A stretch of 44,943 nucleotides of DNA from Rickettsiales bacterium (GTDB lineage: Bacteria; Pseudomonadota; Alphaproteobacteria; Rickettsiales; SXRF01): the NCBI GenBank assembly GCA_005792635.1, contig SXRF01000107.1, positions 1 through 44,943 of the forward strand, read 5' to 3'. Below the pieces are notes generated by a model. It worked only from the letters and a program-made list of their open reading frames with translations, ran no database searches and had not been told where the DNA came from. The stretch's first letter is position 1; every line of letters begins with the position of its first letter. This document shows, in pieces, positions 18,122 through 27,326 of the stretch. Both the position numbers and the translations under genes were made by a program.

Positions 18122-18346
18122 TCAAGCCTTATCATCAGTTGGAATTTTTGGTGGAACGGGATCATACCCCGCTTTAGCAAATGGATGACAACTTGCCAAG
18201 CGTTTAAGTGTGAGCCAACCGCCTTTATATGCGCCGTGCCGCTCTATCGCTTCCTGCGCGTAACATGAACAGGTGGGTGTAAAACGACAATTCACACCGA
18301 GCAAAGGCGAGATGAAGAGTTGGTAAAGGCGGATTAGTAAGAGCAT
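18122..18346 (-). CDS. yidD: Membrane protein insertion efficiency factor YidD
   Basis: 74 aa. The family core is present: [20 protein letters not shown] followed by [20 protein letters not shown] and [13 protein letters not shown], with three of the conserved Cys. YidD assists YidC-dependent insertion at the inner face of the membrane. It lies between rnpA and yidC as expected. An octamer tandem repeat (18352-18435) begins 5 bp upstream of its start and displaces a normal leader. Confidence 0.94.
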
Positions 18347-18351
18347 AAGAT

Positions 18352-18435
18352 GACTAGAGAATTAGAGGACTAGAGGATTAGAGGACTAGAGGATTAGATT
18401 TTTCTGTTTCTCGATTTCTCGAATTATCTAGTCCC
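18352..18435. repeat. Octamer tandem repeat hairpin across the rnpA 3' end
   Basis: Left arm: six 8-bp units (GACTAGAG, AATTAGAG, GACTAGAG, GATTAGAG, GACTAGAG, GATTAGAT; 18352-18399). Right arm: diverged complementary units (CTGTTTCT, CGATTTCT, CGAATTAT, CTAGTCCC; 18404-18435). The right arm and part of the left are translated as the C-terminal tail of RnpA. Confidence 0.8.
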
Positions 18436-21211: not shown

Positions 21212-21390
21212 GGGTTATTACGAACGGAACCACTAAAGCCGTCGGCGAACAAGTCGCATACGACCCGTTTGTTAAGGTGGGCGCCATATGTGCAGGGGCA
21301 AGACCCCCACCAGTGACAGCTCCCAAGCAAAAGAGTATCGGTCCAAGGAACAATGTGCCAAACGCACCAAGCAGAACCGTTCGAGGCTAT
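21212..21390 (-). ncRNA. ssrS: 6S RNA
   Basis: About 180 nt with no gene, between zapA and fau, the standard proteobacterial location. On the minus strand the 5' end CGAACGG pairs with CCGTTCG at the 3' end to close the terminal stem. The middle can fold into the long rod with GGTGGGGG and GCCCCTGC segments typical of 6S. 6S RNA mimics an open promoter and sequesters sigma70 RNA polymerase. The ends are estimated from the terminal stem. Confidence 0.85.
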
Positions 21391-21907: not shown

Positions 21908-23800
21908 ATGGCTGATACACAAGATAGACAATTAACCACAGAAGATCGCAGTTTGCTTATATCTGCGATTGCTAATAAGCTGCGTGAACAATCAAAAAGA
22001 GGTACGCAGCAGGAAATAGATCAATGGAATGAGAGATTTTTAATAGATCAGGGCAGGACAATAGAGGATATTGCCGCTGATATTGTTGATAAAGACACTG
22101 TAACTGTAAAAAATATCCAAGGTCTCGCAGAGACTAAACCTGTTGCCGATTTTCTAAGAGAAGATAAATCAATATCAGGAAAAGTCGTAGGTTTTTTAGC
22201 TAATAGCGTAGACTGGAAGCAAAAATTATTAGCAGAAATAAAAGAAAAAGCCAAGGAAGGTCATGAATATACTTCTCTTGCTAAAAAGGCGCAAGAAGAC
22301 GCACCAGATGCTATTCGTCGTGCAGTTGCCGATAAGCTAAAAGAACAGATAGAAAAGAAACTTCCAACCCCAGAAGCACGAAAAGTGATGCTTGGTACTT
22401 TTGGTATAGATACCAAACTTGACGCAAACGGGAAAGAGTGTGACTGGTCTCTGGATATAGCAAATCAGTTGATAGATAATAGAGGGATAACCGTTGATGG
22501 ACAGATTATACCAATTGAGGATTTTGGTAAAAAATTTGGGATAGAAAATCTATCATCCGTTATTCCAGATAAAGAAAAAATAAAAAAAGCAGCAAAAGAG
22601 ATAGGTGCGGCTGTTGATAATAACACCAGCGACTTGACTGAGAGTTTCGGGTTGGGTGGCGCAAGCATCCTTAATATCATCGCTGCTATTTTTGATTGGC
22701 TGGCAGGAAAAGGAAGCTTTGCAGATTGTGTCGCCAATGTAACGGCTGATGGTATAGAAACTGATACACAGCAGAATTTGGTTAAAAACGCTGGTTTTAG
22801 TGAAGAAGCGGCAAAAGAATACGCCGCCGCCGTTAGAAGCAAAGCATTAGAAGGTCACGAAGATTTTAGACCAGCAGCTACAACAGAACAACAACAGCCA
22901 GCAGTAACAGAGCAAGCTACGCAAGCTCCAGCAGAAGTTGTTCCAAGCAATACAACTCAAGATGCTCCAGCTCAAGGTTCTGCAAACGGGAAAGGGAACG
23001 CACCAACAGAAACAGTCGCTCCCGCCGCAGCAGAAAAGCCAGCACCATCCTCTGCTCCAGCAGTTGCAGCAGCGGCAGGTGTAGCGTCTGTGGCAGCCAC
23101 CGCTGCTTCACAACCACAAGACACTCCAAGAAAACCTGCTGCTAACCATAAAGAAATTAGCAATGCTCCAAAAAAAGGACAAAAAGAAATTGCTAAGCCA
23201 GCAAAAGTAGAGACTTTAGCCGAAGAACCCGTAAAACCAACTGCAACACAGCCAAAAGAAACAGAAAAACTCACCAAATCACCTCTCACTATAATAAAAG
23301 GAATGGTGAATAGTTTGATGGGGCGTAGCGATAAAACGCTAGAGCTTGCTACGCTAAATGCTGTAGCAAATTCTCAAGAACTACTCAGTTCTGAAAATAT
23401 GCCTTCCCTTGCTGACAGCGTAGCAACAAAGCTACTGAATAACAAACAAACTCTAGATATAATCGCAACCAATGCACAGCAAAAGCTAGATGAAAGGGAT
23501 GCGAGCTTTCTTGACAAAAAAGCATTTTCTGGTGCATATGGCTTGGCAAAAATTGGACAAATAGATATGATGAAAGATGACGCAGATTATGGAGTAAAAA
23601 TCCAGATTAATACCCTTCTTACTAAAGACGCAGACGGAAACGGAATCGCAGACGGAATAGACCTGAAAAATGCTATGTTGGAGGCGAAAAAGTCTTGTGC
23701 TGTAAGCCTAAACAGCAAAGAATGTAGCCCAGCGCAATTAAGCGATTTTATCCCAAAAAATACAACAACGACATTAGCTTCTAAGGAACGCTATCCCTAA
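21908..23800 (+). CDS. Large unknown protein with EF-hand-like loop
   Basis: 630 aa, not recognised. The N-terminal half is charged and helical; one hydrophobic stretch lies near residues 250-270 (ASILNIIAAIFDWLAG). Residues about 325-440 are a low-complexity Ala/Pro/Thr/Gln linker, as in proteins with separate modules. Near residue 574 is DADGNGIADGID, a good calcium-binding EF-hand loop (acidic at positions 1, 3, 9 and 12). No signal peptide is seen. It could be secreted by a non-Sec route or be cytoplasmic. Codon use is AT-rich. Its promoter resembles that of the unknown gene at 39903, suggesting joint control. It overlaps the convergent esterase gene by 4 bp. Confidence 0.75.
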   Translation: MADTQDRQLTTEDRSLLISAIANKLREQSKRGTQQEIDQWNERFLIDQGRTIEDIAADIVDKDTVTVKNIQGLAETKPVADFLREDKSISGKVVGFLANSVDWKQKLLAEIKEKAKEGHEYTSLAKKAQEDAPDAIRRAVADKLKEQIEKKLPTPEARKVMLGTFGIDTKLDANGKECDWSLDIANQLIDNRGITVDGQIIPIEDFGKKFGIENLSSVIPDKEKIKKAAKEIGAAVDNNTSDLTESFGLGGASILNIIAAIFDWLAGKGSFADCVANVTADGIETDTQQNLVKNAGFSEEAAKEYAAAVRSKALEGHEDFRPAATTEQQQPAVTEQATQAPAEVVPSNTTQDAPAQGSANGKGNAPTETVAPAAAEKPAPSSAPAVAAAAGVASVAATAASQPQDTPRKPAANHKEISNAPKKGQKEIAKPAKVETLAEEPVKPTATQPKETEKLTKSPLTIIKGMVNSLMGRSDKTLELATLNAVANSQELLSSENMPSLADSVATKLLNNKQTLDIIATNAQQKLDERDASFLDKKAFSGAYGLAKIGQIDMMKDDADYGVKIQINTLLTKDADGNGIADGIDLKNAMLEAKKSCAVSLNSKECSPAQLSDFIPKNTTTTLASKERYP

Positions 23801-24453
23801 CCCACCACCATCACCTTCAAAAACTTACTCGCAATTGTGATGCCTTCCATATCTATACTATGACCGAGGAAGGGGCGGGTGTGGGCATCCACGCTAACGC
23901 CGTGGGCGCGTAGAACCTCGGTGGCGTTTGCAAGCGAGGCATAAGGCACGACATCATCCATAGTCCCATGAATCAAACACACTGGCGGGCGAGCGGTGAT
24001 TTCTGCGGGCAGCACTTCTGGCGCAACCAGCATTCCCGAATAGCCAACAAGGGCAGCGATTTGCGGCTTGCGGCGAAGGGCGACATGTAGAGCCGTCATC
24101 GTTCCCTGCGAGAAACCGACAAGGGCAAGGTTTCCATTATCAAGCCCCAGTTCCAGCAATTGCTCGTCAATAAAATCATTCAAAATATCCGCGGCTTTGC
24201 GAATGCCCGCGAGCATGTGGTCGGGCGAGCGATCCATCAGCGAAAACCACTGGAAACCATAAGGGTTCACCTCGCAAACAAAGGGCGCATTCGGCGCAAT
24301 GAAATGCGCATCAGGCAGCGCAGGCGCGAAAGCATCGGCAAGGTCAATCAGATTATAACCATCCGCCCCCCAACCATGCAGGAGGATAACCAGTTGTTTA
24401 GCTGGTTTTCCAGAGGCGGGAGTGCGGTAAGCGGTGGGGGTGAGTTTTGACAT
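23797..24453 (-). CDS. Phospholipase/carboxylesterase family hydrolase
   Basis: 218 aa alpha/beta hydrolase. LVILLHGWGADGYNLIDLAD forms the oxyanion region, GFSQGTM holds the nucleophile Ser (about 114), Asp lies in GTMDDVVPY and His in LGHSID. This matches the carboxylesterase/thioesterase 1 family (YpfH/EstB-like), which cleaves short acyl esters. The true substrate is not visible. It faces away from polA, separated by the heptamer hairpin at 24463-24543. Confidence 0.88.
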   Translation of the reverse strand: MSKLTPTAYRTPASGKPAKQLVILLHGWGADGYNLIDLADAFAPALPDAHFIAPNAPFVCEVNPYGFQWFSLMDRSPDHMLAGIRKAADILNDFIDEQLLELGLDNGNLALVGFSQGTMTALHVALRRKPQIAALVGYSGMLVAPEVLPAEITARPPVCLIHGTMDDVVPYASLANATEVLRAHGVSVDAHTRPFLGHSIDMEGITIASKFLKVMVVG

Positions 24454-24462
24454 GTGGTTATT

Positions 24463-24543
24463 AGTTGTGAGTTGTTAGTTGTTAGTATATGCAATTTACT
24501 AAACGAATAACCCATAACTATCAACCAACAACTAACAACATGA
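24463..24543. repeat. Heptamer tandem repeat hairpin at the polA start
   Basis: Left arm units AGTTGTG, AGTTGTT, AGTTGTT (24463-24483). Right arm units AACTATC, AACCAAC, AACTAAC (24516-24536), then AAC running into the polA ATG. The two arms are mutually complementary around a 32-base centre, leaving polA without an ordinary ribosome binding site. Confidence 0.8.
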
Positions 24544-27326
24544 ACAAAAATTCTCTCCTCCTCATTGACGGCTCTGGTTTTATTTTTCGCGCCTTTCACG
24601 CCCTGCCGCCGCTGACTAACGCGCACGGCGTTCCTGCTGGCGCGGTGGTTGGGTTTATGAACATGCTCACCAAGCTGATGAGCGACTCAAAACATACCCA
24701 CGCGGCGGTTATATTTGATGCGGCGCGGGTAACATTTCGCAACCGATTATACGCCGAATATAAGGCGCACCGCCCGCCCGCGCCTGATGATTTAGTTCCT
24801 CAGTTTCCGCTGGTGCGCGAGGCGACAATCGCTATGAACCTGCCCGCCATTGAGCTTGCGGATTATGAGGCGGACGATATTATTGCTACCTACGCCAAGC
24901 AAGCAGCAGCGCAGGGTTTTGAGGTGACGATTGTCTCATCGGATAAAGATTTGATGCAGCTTATCGGTGACAACATAAAAATGTTTGACGCAATGAAGAA
25001 TAAAGACATTGGCGAGGCGCAGGTGCGCGAAAAATTCGGCGTTGCGCCAGAAAAAGTGCGCGAGGTTTTGTCGCTGATTGGCGATAGCTCTGACAATGTT
25101 CCCGGTGTGGCGGGAATTGGCCAGAAGACCGCCGCCGAGCTGATTAATGAATATGGAGATTTGGAAACTCTTCTTTCTCGGGCGGGCGAAATAAAACAGC
25201 CAAAAAGACGCGAAACCTTGCTTGCATCCGCCGATATGGCTCGGCTTTCCAAGCAATTGGTGACACTCGACGAAAATGTTCCGCTGCCGATTCCGCTGGC
25301 GGATTTGGCGATTAAACAACCAGACACGGAACGGCTAGTGGCGTTTTTGCGCGAGCAGGGCTTCAAAAATTTACTGGCAAAGCTGGAAGGAAAGGCTTCA
25401 GGCTCTAGGCTTCAGGCTACTAGCAATCAAGAAACTCTTGAAGCCCGAAGCCCGAAGCCCGAAGCCAACTATACCACAATCACCACCCTTCCCGCCCTGC
25501 AAGACTGGCTGGCTCATGCGGCGAAGGCTGGGCGCGTGGCGTTTGACACCGAAACCACATCACTCAACGCGCAGGCTGCGGAATTGGTGGGATTTTCACT
25601 ATGCGTGGAGGCGGGCGAGGCTTGTTATGTGCCAGTTGGGCATCAGGCTTTAGGCTCTGGGCTTCTGGCTTCAGATGACCTATTCGCTGCGAAGCCCGAA
25701 CCCAGAAGCCCGAAGCCTATACAAATTCCAACTGCCGATGCCATAGCCGCCATCAAACCACTGCTAGAAGACGCAAGCATCCTGAAAATCGGGCAGAATA
25801 TAAAATATGACCTGCTGATTATGCAAAATTACGGCGTGAATATCGCGCCAATTGACGACACGATGCTCATGTCATATTGCCTGCATGCGGGCGAGCATGG
25901 GCAGGGGATGGACGAACTAGCGCAGAAATATCTCGGCATAAAACCAATTTCCTACGACGAAGTGACAGGCACAGGCAAAAACCGCAAATGTTTTTCCGAA
26001 GTGGAAATTGAAAAAGCGGCTGCTTACGCGGCGGAGGATGCGGATATTACGCTGCGCCTGTGGGAATTTTTCAAGCCGCAACTCGCCGAGCAAAAACTGC
26101 TAACGCTTTATGAAACTATTGAGCGCCCCCTCGTTCCCGTTATCGCGCAGATGGAAACGAATGGTGTCAAGCTTGACCTGCCGCGCCTCGCCGAGCTTTC
26201 AAAGGATTTTGGCACAAGAATGGCAGAGCTGGAGCGCGAGATTCACACACTCGCAGGGCGCGAATTCAATGTCGCCTCGCCCAAGCAGCTGGGCGAAATT
26301 CTGTTTGATGAAATGGGGCTGGCGGGCGGCAAAAAATCCGACAAATCGGGCGCATATTCAACAGGCGTGGAAGTGTTGGAAGAGCTAGCAGAGGAAGGGC
26401 ATGTGTTGCCGCAGAAGGTGCTGGACTGGCGGCAATTCGCCAAACTCAAAAGCACCTATACCGACAGTTTATCGGCGCAAATAAACCCGAAAACAGGGCG
26501 CGTACATACCAATTTTGCCATGGCAATAACCAGCACAGGGCGGCTTAGCTCCAACGAGCCGAATTTGCAGAATATCCCCATCCGTAGCCTTGAAGGCAAA
26601 AAAATCCGCGAGTGCTTTATCGCCGAAAAAGGAAGCGTTCTCCTCGCCGCCGATTATTCACAGATTGAGCTGCGCCTGCTCGCGCACATGGCGGATGTGC
26701 CAGAGCTTAAAACCGCTTTCCGCAACGGCGACGATATTCACGCCATCACCGCCAGCCAAATGTTCGGCGTGCCAGTCGCGCAAGTAAATTCCGACCTGCG
26801 GCGCAAAGCCAAAACCATCAATTTCGGAATTATTTACGGCATCAGCGCACATGGGCTGGCGACACGCCTTGGCATTTCGCGCACCGAGGCGGGCGCGTAT
26901 ATTGAGCAATATTTCAAGCAATATAGCGGCATCCGCGATTATATGGAATCCTGCAAGGAATTCGCCCGCGAACATGGATATGTTGAAACTTTGTTCGGCA
27001 GGCGTTGCCACACCCCCGCCATCAACGATAAAAACGGCGCACGGCGACAATTCGGCGAACGCGCCGCCATCAACGCCCCGCTGCAAGGCACAGCGGCGGA
27101 TATTATTAAACGGGCGATGGTTGCTATCAGTGGTCAGTGGTCAGCAGTCAGCGGTCAGTATAAAATGCTCCTGCAAGTCCATGACGAGCTGGTGTTTGAA
27201 GTGGCGGAAGTTGATGTGGAAGCGGCAAAAACCATCATCAAACCCGCGATGGAAAATGCCGCCAGCATCTCCGTTCCCCTAACCGTTGAAATCGGCACAG
27301 GAAAAAACTGGGGAATGGCTCATTAA
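24540..27326 (+). CDS. polA: DNA polymerase I
   Basis: 928 aa from MNKNSLLLIDGSG. Three domains are present: 5' nuclease (1-285), 3'-5' exonuclease with DTET (about 336), KIGQNIKYD and YAAEDAD, and polymerase with motif A DYSQIELRLLAHM, motif B RRKAKTINFGIIYG and motif C VHDELVFEV. It is therefore predicted proofreading-competent. It fills gaps and removes RNA primers. Three heptamer repeats are read in frame: residues 285-309 in the linker, 368-393 in an exonuclease-domain loop, and 863-874 just before motif C. The third segment keeps the length of the E. coli protein; the others add residues. The start codon is embedded in another repeat arm. Confidence 0.96.
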   Translation: MNKNSLLLIDGSGFIFRAFHALPPLTNAHGVPAGAVVGFMNMLTKLMSDSKHTHAAVIFDAARVTFRNRLYAEYKAHRPPAPDDLVPQFPLVREATIAMNLPAIELADYEADDIIATYAKQAAAQGFEVTIVSSDKDLMQLIGDNIKMFDAMKNKDIGEAQVREKFGVAPEKVREVLSLIGDSSDNVPGVAGIGQKTAAELINEYGDLETLLSRAGEIKQPKRRETLLASADMARLSKQLVTLDENVPLPIPLADLAIKQPDTERLVAFLREQGFKNLLAKLEGKASGSRLQATSNQETLEARSPKPEANYTTITTLPALQDWLAHAAKAGRVAFDTETTSLNAQAAELVGFSLCVEAGEACYVPVGHQALGSGLLASDDLFAAKPEPRSPKPIQIPTADAIAAIKPLLEDASILKIGQNIKYDLLIMQNYGVNIAPIDDTMLMSYCLHAGEHGQGMDELAQKYLGIKPISYDEVTGTGKNRKCFSEVEIEKAAAYAAEDADITLRLWEFFKPQLAEQKLLTLYETIERPLVPVIAQMETNGVKLDLPRLAELSKDFGTRMAELEREIHTLAGREFNVASPKQLGEILFDEMGLAGGKKSDKSGAYSTGVEVLEELAEEGHVLPQKVLDWRQFAKLKSTYTDSLSAQINPKTGRVHTNFAMAITSTGRLSSNEPNLQNIPIRSLEGKKIRECFIAEKGSVLLAADYSQIELRLLAHMADVPELKTAFRNGDDIHAITASQMFGVPVAQVNSDLRRKAKTINFGIIYGISAHGLATRLGISRTEAGAYIEQYFKQYSGIRDYMESCKEFAREHGYVETLFGRRCHTPAINDKNGARRQFGERAAINAPLQGTAADIIKRAMVAISGQWSAVSGQYKMLLQVHDELVFEVAEVDVEAAKTIIKPAMENAASISVPLTVEIGTGKNWGMAH
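25394..25466. repeat. In-frame heptamer hairpin 1 in polA
   Basis: Left arm GGCTTCA, GGCTCTA, GGCTTCA, GGCTACT (25394-25421); right arm TGAAGCC then three CGAAGCC (25439-25466). The arms are complementary and encode the linker between the 5' nuclease and exonuclease domains. Confidence 0.85.
25641..25718. repeat. In-frame heptamer hairpin 2 in polA
   Basis: Left arm CATCAGG, CTTTAGG, CTCTGGG, CTTCTGG, CTTCAGA (25641-25675); right arm GAAGCCC, GAACCCA, GAAGCCC, GAAGCCT (25691-25718). Same unit family as hairpin 1. It encodes an inserted loop in the 3'-5' exonuclease domain. Confidence 0.85.
27126..27160. repeat. In-frame heptamer tandem array in polA near motif C
   Basis: Five units (TCAGTGG, TCAGTGG, TCAGCAG, TCAGCGG, TCAGTAT) with no facing arm. 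They encode ISGQWSAVSGQY between the QGTAADIIKRAM helix and motif C. Confidence 0.8.

Follow-up and report, generated by a model that had tools for sequence, protein, structure and literature searches.

We found that the gene for DNA polymerase I (polA) of a Rickettsiales bacterium carries three arrays of heptamer tandem repeats that are translated in frame, and that hairpins of the same build, made of units that differ between species, recur at the same positions of core genes in related genomes. The gene lies on contig SXRF01000107.1 of assembly GCA_005792635.1, analysed here over 44,943 nt (the window). A first-pass annotation, made from the sequence alone, had described the polA arrays and likened them to palindromic and heptameric repeats of other bacteria; its observation is confirmed and its interpretation partly supported. 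We read the polA arrays as part of a lineage-specific set of hairpins, generated as DNA and then sifted by what the protein tolerates, their arms having grown by slippage in steps of 7 or 8 nt within a short imperfect inverted repeat, together with template switching. To this reading we give roughly an even chance.

The polA gene (24540–27326, plus strand) encodes 928 amino acids, and relatives align from residues 1–6 onward; a longer open reading frame (ORF) listed from 24489 begins within a hairpin upstream. The arrays are read through in frame, and Pfam recognises 5_3_exonuc_N, 5_3_exonuc, DNA_pol_A_exo1 and DNA_pol_A in the protein. The three arrays, all read on the plus strand, lie where they had been placed, two of them as facing pairs that form hairpins of ~80 nt and the third as a single arm. 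The first hairpin (25391–25470, residues ~284–311) lies in the linker that joins the 5′ nuclease domain to the 3′–5′ exonuclease domain and has a GGCTTCA-type left arm (25391–25421) and a GAAGCCC-type right arm (25434–25470). The second (25636–25719, residues ~366–394) occupies a loop of the 3′–5′ exonuclease domain, with arms at 25636–25674 and 25689–25719 and a spacer coding for DLF, which is common to relatives. Folding z-scores were −5.1 and −3.2 for the two as DNA and −5.9 and −4.2 as RNA. The third, a TCAGTGG array before motif C (27123–27160, residues ~862–874), is not a hairpin: it has no facing partner within 120 nt, and its z-scores were −0.2 (DNA) and −0.5 (RNA). Rfam matched nothing at the heptamer elements of the window. 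With up to two mismatches, GAAGCCC-type arrays occur on at least 10 other contigs of the same genome (G000) and TCAGTGG-type arrays on four, so that the polA units do recur elsewhere, which the first-pass annotation had proposed to check.

In an AlphaFold2 model of PolA (24 sequences, mean pLDDT, the predicted local distance difference test score, 86.6), pLDDT fell below 50 over stretches of at least three residues in just two places, 286–305 and 372–390, both within the hairpin-coded parts. These may be disordered, although low pLDDT is no proof of disorder and the hairpin-coded segments are also the ones that vary most in the alignment. The first-pass annotation was right to place the two in the interdomain linker and an exonuclease loop, where they are tolerated. 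The part coded by the TCAGTGG array comprises the end of a helix (833–869) and the loop before motif C, with pLDDT near 80. Here the first-pass reading as an insert needs correction: the array is about as long as the corresponding sequence in array-free relatives. Residues invariant in the 24 PolA sequences include D336 and E338 of the exonuclease domain and D705, H881 and D882 of the polymerase domain, which we take to be catalytic. As a separate observation, the exonuclease loop holds a (D/N/S)LF motif (~25675–25690) that in hairpin-free relatives often reads Q-x-x-LF (QSNLF, QGNLF or QTDLF), a form that we presume to resemble the sliding-clamp-binding motif of bacteria.

The first-pass annotation proposed to see whether close relatives lack the segments and would have taken conservation of the segments as a refutation; neither is plainly the case, as the slots recur and the units differ between species. 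In PheS, the slot between HDTFYL and LLRTHTS holds a GGCTTCA-type element of 63 nt in G000, a GGATGAC-type element of 78 nt in G010 and a GAGTGGC-type element of 81 nt in G013. The other 10 of the 13 sequences have 12–39 nt there, eight coding for QGNGDGKT or a near form and two for a four-residue turn, and include congeners of all three bearers (G001–G003 in the genus of G000, G005 in that of G010 and G009 in that of G013). Because three genera have three heptamers in one codon slot where congeners have none, repeated gain at tolerated loops suggests itself, three separate and probably independent gains in pheS being the simplest reading. The PdxJ slot holds heptamer elements in G015, G013 and G005, and another palindrome in G010. 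In UbiD, G015 and G005 share both slot and unit, six others lack the element and six of the 14 sequences were unmatched by the search pattern; a second UbiD slot is filled in G000, and G005 has a longer stretch there too. Our detector found hairpins in the PolA linker slot of G000, G005, G007, G009, G013 and G015 and in the exonuclease-loop slot of G000, G007, G009, G010 and G013. A facing pair is visible by eye in the latter slot of G005, and the protein of a G003 record suggests one; the loop DNA of some relatives was assessed through the protein or the detector only. No loop hairpin was found in G015, for which the anchor of the loop comparison was unmatched. Between species the inserts are less alike than their flanks, with mean DNA identities of 0.56 against 0.65 for the linker (21 pairs) and 0.55 against 0.71 for the exonuclease loop (15 pairs). 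At motif C, G001 and G002 have related TCAGYGG-like arrays but about the same number of residues as array-free relatives, whereas hairpins add ~15–20 residues in G013 (by the detector) and in G015 and G005 (by eye). The G010 palindrome of the pdxJ slot (L266), and one in the polA linker of G010 (L105) between apparent heptamer arms, look CGTC-type, a label given by appearance and without a family search, and are distinct from the heptamer elements.

Such elements are far from confined to polA. For the 1.95-Mb genome of the window, densities were taken from the window and ten contigs chosen regardless of matches (L131–L140), 159.5 kb in all; ten contigs selected for carrying matches (L141–L150) were excluded. 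Strict arrays numbered nine at period 7 and six at period 8 in this sample, against none in one shuffled copy. A slip-pairing detector, which scores hairpins whose arms can pair in register and also with a shift of one unit (threshold 9.5), found five period-7 hairpins in G000 (160 kb) and none in its shuffled copy, and the arrays are thus in excess of chance. The same detector found 16 in G015 (200 kb), four in G005 (164 kb), four in G001 (200 kb), two in G003 (178 kb), four in G009 (59 kb), three in G010 (120 kb) and one in G007 (86 kb), that is, 39 in the sampled stretches of eight bearing genomes of the family, at densities of 11–80 per Mb. It found none in G008 (100 kb), G011 (82 kb), G031 (100 kb) or G016 (100 kb), and none in the shuffled copies of all 12 genomes. 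By period, hairpins numbered 39 at 7, 37 at 14 (a multiple of 7), 10 at 8 and two or three at each of 4–6 and 9–13; period 7 therefore stands out, and period 8 does so more weakly. A looser, earlier detector showed the same pattern over a higher background, with five period-7 elements in G000 against two in its shuffled copy, one each in G031 and G016, and 0–5 in the shuffles of single genomes. Among other Alphaproteobacteria, 69 loci (1,123 kb) yielded two elements at period 7 and 20 across eight other periods, which puts period 7 at background there. Counts of periods, densities and ORF positions retain one element at L212.

Within these samples the trait clusters in a single family of metagenome-assembled genomes (MAGs), labelled Rickettsiales, Pseudomonadota or Alphaproteobacteria bacterium; beyond polA, other families of the order were represented by two genomes, and G006, G012 and G014 were looked at for polA and three other genes alone. 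Two sampled family members with a hairpin-free polA had no hairpins in their sampled stretches either. In a quick PolA tree (SH-aLRT support, some forks open), the genera g4 and g6, whose polA is free of hairpins, are nested inside a clade of bearers, which suggests that they lost them. Bearers on this tree were labelled by eye, with polA as the sole criterion, so that G001–G003 are unlabelled though they bear elements elsewhere. A class sample of 289 genomes, which excluded G015 and G005, where the unit occurs, yielded no (CCAACTG)n repeat. In a phylum sample, 6 genomes out of 398 have the repeat (GAAGCCC)n, for which the control was uninformative because the unit read backwards is its own rotation; in the sequence context shown for one locus from each of the five other genomes, three were long single arrays and one was a facing pair, and the fifth locus, for which no context was shown, had no hairpin. 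G673, which belongs to a different class of this phylum, matches (GAAGCCC)n at 134 overlapping positions, and at its locus L288 a long array faces a partner array. In another family of the order, G033 (L111) has an octamer-like array, AGAGATTC / GAAATTCC, in the PolA motif C slot.

The anatomy of the elements was studied in a curated set of 69 (59 of period 7 and 10 of period 8), which includes some from polA, pheS, ubiD and pdxJ loci found at a lower threshold of 8.0. It is a biased sample whose units are not independent at orthologous loci such as UbiD of G015 and G005, and the analyses of units, arms, open frames and loops omit duplicates of one element and two non-array rows (L212, and L105 at 1997). 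Period-7 elements have a median length of 79 nt (interquartile range (IQR) 72–86), a loop of 15 nt and arms of 31 nt each. The more G-skewed arm is the 5′ arm in 67 of the 69, and in 47 of 49 elements of an unbiased set. Agreement of an arm with its own consensus is 86%, and with that of the other arm 81%; the two consensus sequences are identical in 24 elements and differ at one position in 31, at two in 12 and at four in two. Mismatches to the joint consensus cluster at a single position of the unit (worst-column share 0.45 against 0.34 expected, reached in 0 of 2000 simulations), whereas those within single arms do not (0.43 versus 0.41 and 0.41 versus 0.41). On this evidence the arms look as if each had been amplified separately from one imperfect inverted seed. 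Loops of elements that share a unit are near background similarity, none clearly shared: 15 same-unit pairs within genomes scored 5.07, against 4.81 for 209 other pairs and 4.40 for shuffled loops. For lack of such similarity, copying of whole elements was rejected. Among 71 strict period-7 arrays, 43 have a convergent partner, one has a doubtful divergent partner and 27 have none within 120 nt, three of the last being A+T-rich runs in G008 and G016. We also noticed arrays of like units that face each other ~0.4–3.3 kb apart (L186 at 12548/15873, L223 at 10854/11252 and L228 at 3456/3874), as if pairs can flank long stretches too.

One spacer is inverted between species. A GTTGTTA/AGTTGTT hairpin (24454–24539) fills the gap between polA and a divergent ORF (23797–24453), and its 21-nt spacer matches two species of the same genus better as the reverse complement (19 positions in G001, L012 1641–1770, and 17 in G002, L011 7331–7485) than in forward orientation (12 in each). 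The spacer may be promoter DNA.

Many genes other than polA carry elements, and in this respect the focus of the first-pass annotation on polA, correct as to the arrays themselves, is too narrow. Relative to ORFs of at least 80 amino acids, 25 of the 49 elements are entirely internal, 10 overlap and 14 are outside; since 88–94% of the sampled sequence is ORF, elements are depleted in genes yet common there. Pfam was used to check ten host ORFs chosen from those bearing elements, which proved to encode a class-III aminotransferase, PdxJ, an amidase, UbiD, PriA, oxoglutarate-dehydrogenase E1, a 2-oxoacid dehydrogenase E2, a Mur ligase, PheS and a HhH-GPD glycosylase with a weak NUDIX_4 match (MutY-like). 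Several of these genes are essential in model bacteria. Of the six reading frames, period-7 elements leave on average 2.0 open inside ORFs (n = 22) and 0.4 outside (n = 10), the outcome to be expected if elements form alike throughout the genome and genes retain those that can be read through.

Growth in place would account for much of this. An element would start from a short imperfect inverted repeat of ~7 or 8 nt per arm; replication slippage, one unit per step, would bring each arm to about four copies; and the arms, once able to fold, could exchange information through template switching, which may also flip the spacer. The unit would come from the site itself or from units frequent in the same genome, and form and period would therefore recur where sequence does not. 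Within genes, an element would survive, and be translated, if its frame is open and it falls in a loop or linker that tolerates it; such elements may be neutral. We infer the slippage and template-switch steps from the facing arms, which are separately homogeneous and nearly complementary, the unshared loops, the single arms and the inverted spacer, all of which fit growth in situ. The exonuclease-loop spacer, which retains an LF motif also present in hairpin-free relatives, counts on the same side, as do the prominence of periods 7 and 8, the larger number of open frames inside ORFs and the three units in one pheS slot. Template switching between inverted repeats in yeast homogenises arms and inverts spacers, coding DNA included, according to the abstract of Abraham and Hazkani-Covo 2021 (PMC8604942), and MacGregor 2015 (PMC4679880) relays an earlier proposal that heptanucleotide repeats stem from polymerase slippage, with 7 nt perhaps the length of polymerase contact.

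Several results weigh against growth in situ. Identical units make up 15 of 255 pairs within genomes (5.9%) and 17 of 1456 between them (1.2%), with letter-shuffled units at 0.2%, and 0 of 1000 label shuffles reached this difference, a hint of spread in trans. The effect is limited to identical or near-identical units, since mean unit similarity differed weakly (158 of 2000 shuffles reached the difference) and matches at five of seven letters did not differ significantly (288 of 1000). Total length is tighter than free slippage would suggest. Copying of whole arms should mirror variants unit by unit between the arms, which was not found (43 elements, p = 0.16). The LF argument is weakened by an element in priA of G005, whose spacer codes for DLF as well, and the data leave the choice of 7 or 8 nt unexplained.

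Because lengths vary so little, genomes reuse their own units and variants are not mirrored between arms, the elements might instead be mobile hairpins, akin to miniature inverted-repeat transposable elements, each inserted whole by a transposase that recognises structure rather than sequence, every copy being re-homogenised around a heptamer of its own. The 63–81 nt of new sequence at a single pheS slot in three genera would suit such an element, as would the CGTC-type-looking palindrome in the pdxJ and polA linker slots of G010. Against it, spacers are unshared even among copies with the same unit, single-arm arrays exist, and no common ends or consensus were seen by eye in the element list, which was not scanned for GTAG/CGTC tags. 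Moreover, the exonuclease loop and motif C slot of the window have gained little or no length relative to hairpin-free relatives. Of the two enzyme families searched for, neither tracks the elements: Y1 transposase (PF01797) occurs in 2 of 16 family genomes (G000 and G009) and in none of six other bearers, and RVT_1 in 2 of 16, which led us to reject both a RAYT-type (repetitive extragenic palindrome (REP)-associated tyrosine) transposase as mobiliser and a telomerase-like reverse transcriptase. We regard a mobile hairpin as possible but doubtful. Loss of a hairpin nuclease was considered as well. SbcD (TIGR00619) was found in 0 of 16 family genomes, while 13 of 14 control genomes match (8 above the cut-off), in a search that covered SbcD and not SbcC; Caulobacter is not among the 13. 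As family members without detected elements lack SbcD too, its loss was rejected as the cause; it may at most be permissive for hairpins and does not separate bearers from non-bearers.

It is unlikely, in our judgement, that selection maintains the heptamer form because the hairpins act in DNA or RNA, in replication, transcription or mRNA stability. Their uniform form, with the more G-skewed arm in 5′ position, would agree with a function, and in several relatives the gap upstream of polA is flanked by hairpins or facing arrays, with differing units; but the elements are scattered over unrelated genes, that of pheS is missing from congeneric species, and the polA inserts are less similar between species than the sequence around them. 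Ordinary low-complexity protein linkers with codons repeated by chance are very improbable, even though both polA hairpins sit in a linker and a loop: the period is 7 rather than 3, 6 or 9, the arms are complementary, and copies of the same form lie outside genes. Errors in assembling metagenome bins, which the first-pass annotation had named as a possible refutation, may come to mind because the bearing relatives named here are draft MAGs. They can hardly be the explanation, as MAGs of different origin have elements in the same slots, in readable frames.

The nearest precedents are the Rickettsia palindromic elements (RPEs) for the effect on proteins and the GGGAATC pairs of Xanthomonas for the form of the DNA, and neither fits fully; the parallel drawn in the first-pass annotation with RPEs and with heptamer repeats thus stands for effect and form, but not for a consensus. 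As described, RPEs are palindromic elements of ~150 bp in ten families, each with a conserved peptide, found in frame inside unrelated protein genes, as CGTC- or GTAG-tagged REPs can be (PMC10969869, PMC3733652). Ours are likewise palindromic and in frame within polA and other protein genes, but have a median of 79 bp, consist of tandem units of 7 or 8 nt and, judging from their units and loops, lack the consensus or peptide by which RPE families are described. Rehm 2015 (PMC4692102) reports heptamer arrays, most often of four units, in Xanthomonas (GGGAATC) and Nostoc (GGGGA(C/T)T), with 70 (Xcc) and 75 (Xac) convergent facing pairs of GGGAATC, 89% (Xcc) and 93% (Xac) intergenic, and mentions three heptanucleotides in Calothrix. 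Heptamers, about four units and convergent pairing (here 43 of 71 strict arrays) are common to both systems, whereas the Xanthomonas account concerns one G-rich, mainly intergenic unit type, and our family has many units, with 25 of 49 elements wholly in ORFs. The TAACTGA direct repeats of Beggiatoaceae are described as heptamer arrays of one unit, mostly intergenic, with one inverted case (PMC4679880); their reverse complement, TCAGTTA, is a unit here (G015, L157 14703). For template switching in yeast, the abstract mentions no arms of tandem units (PMC8604942). Cyanobacterial STRR (short tandemly repeated repetitive) sequences are also short tandem heptamers. REPs of the GTAG or CGTC kind are consensus palindromes of 20–40 bp that bear a tetranucleotide tag at one end, and REP/RAYT systems differ in their Y1 transposase, which most element-bearing genomes here do not have. 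Among the titles and abstract openings listed from the open literature, with subscription papers mostly outside, we found no account of core genes that contain in-frame heptamer hairpins whose units vary.

The window contains further elements. An octamer element of the same style (18340–18432), with AGAGGATT/AGAGGACT units and a pyrimidine-rich facing part, was found by the looser detector and lies outside the rows of the stricter one. A short CACTAGC heptamer array lies at 985–1016. We also noted a 6S RNA on the minus strand at 21223–21380 (Rfam RF00013, 55.6 bits).

Heptamer repeats are described as over-represented in bacteria and little studied (Rehm 2015, PMC4692102; MacGregor 2015, PMC4679880). 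As a tentative generalisation, a process linked to replication might build hairpins of fixed geometry, in steps of 7 or 8 nt, with about four units per arm and the G-skewed arm first, around any sequence, genic or not; what is heritable would then be the geometry and step size rather than the sequence, and core enzymes would time and again acquire unrelated peptides in the same loops. Since units vary while period, size and orientation are nearly fixed, this family could help to separate a DNA-level process from sequence-specific function. Its coding frames record which elements were tolerated, and the pheS, pdxJ and polA slots amount to natural experiments in adding peptide segments to core enzymes.

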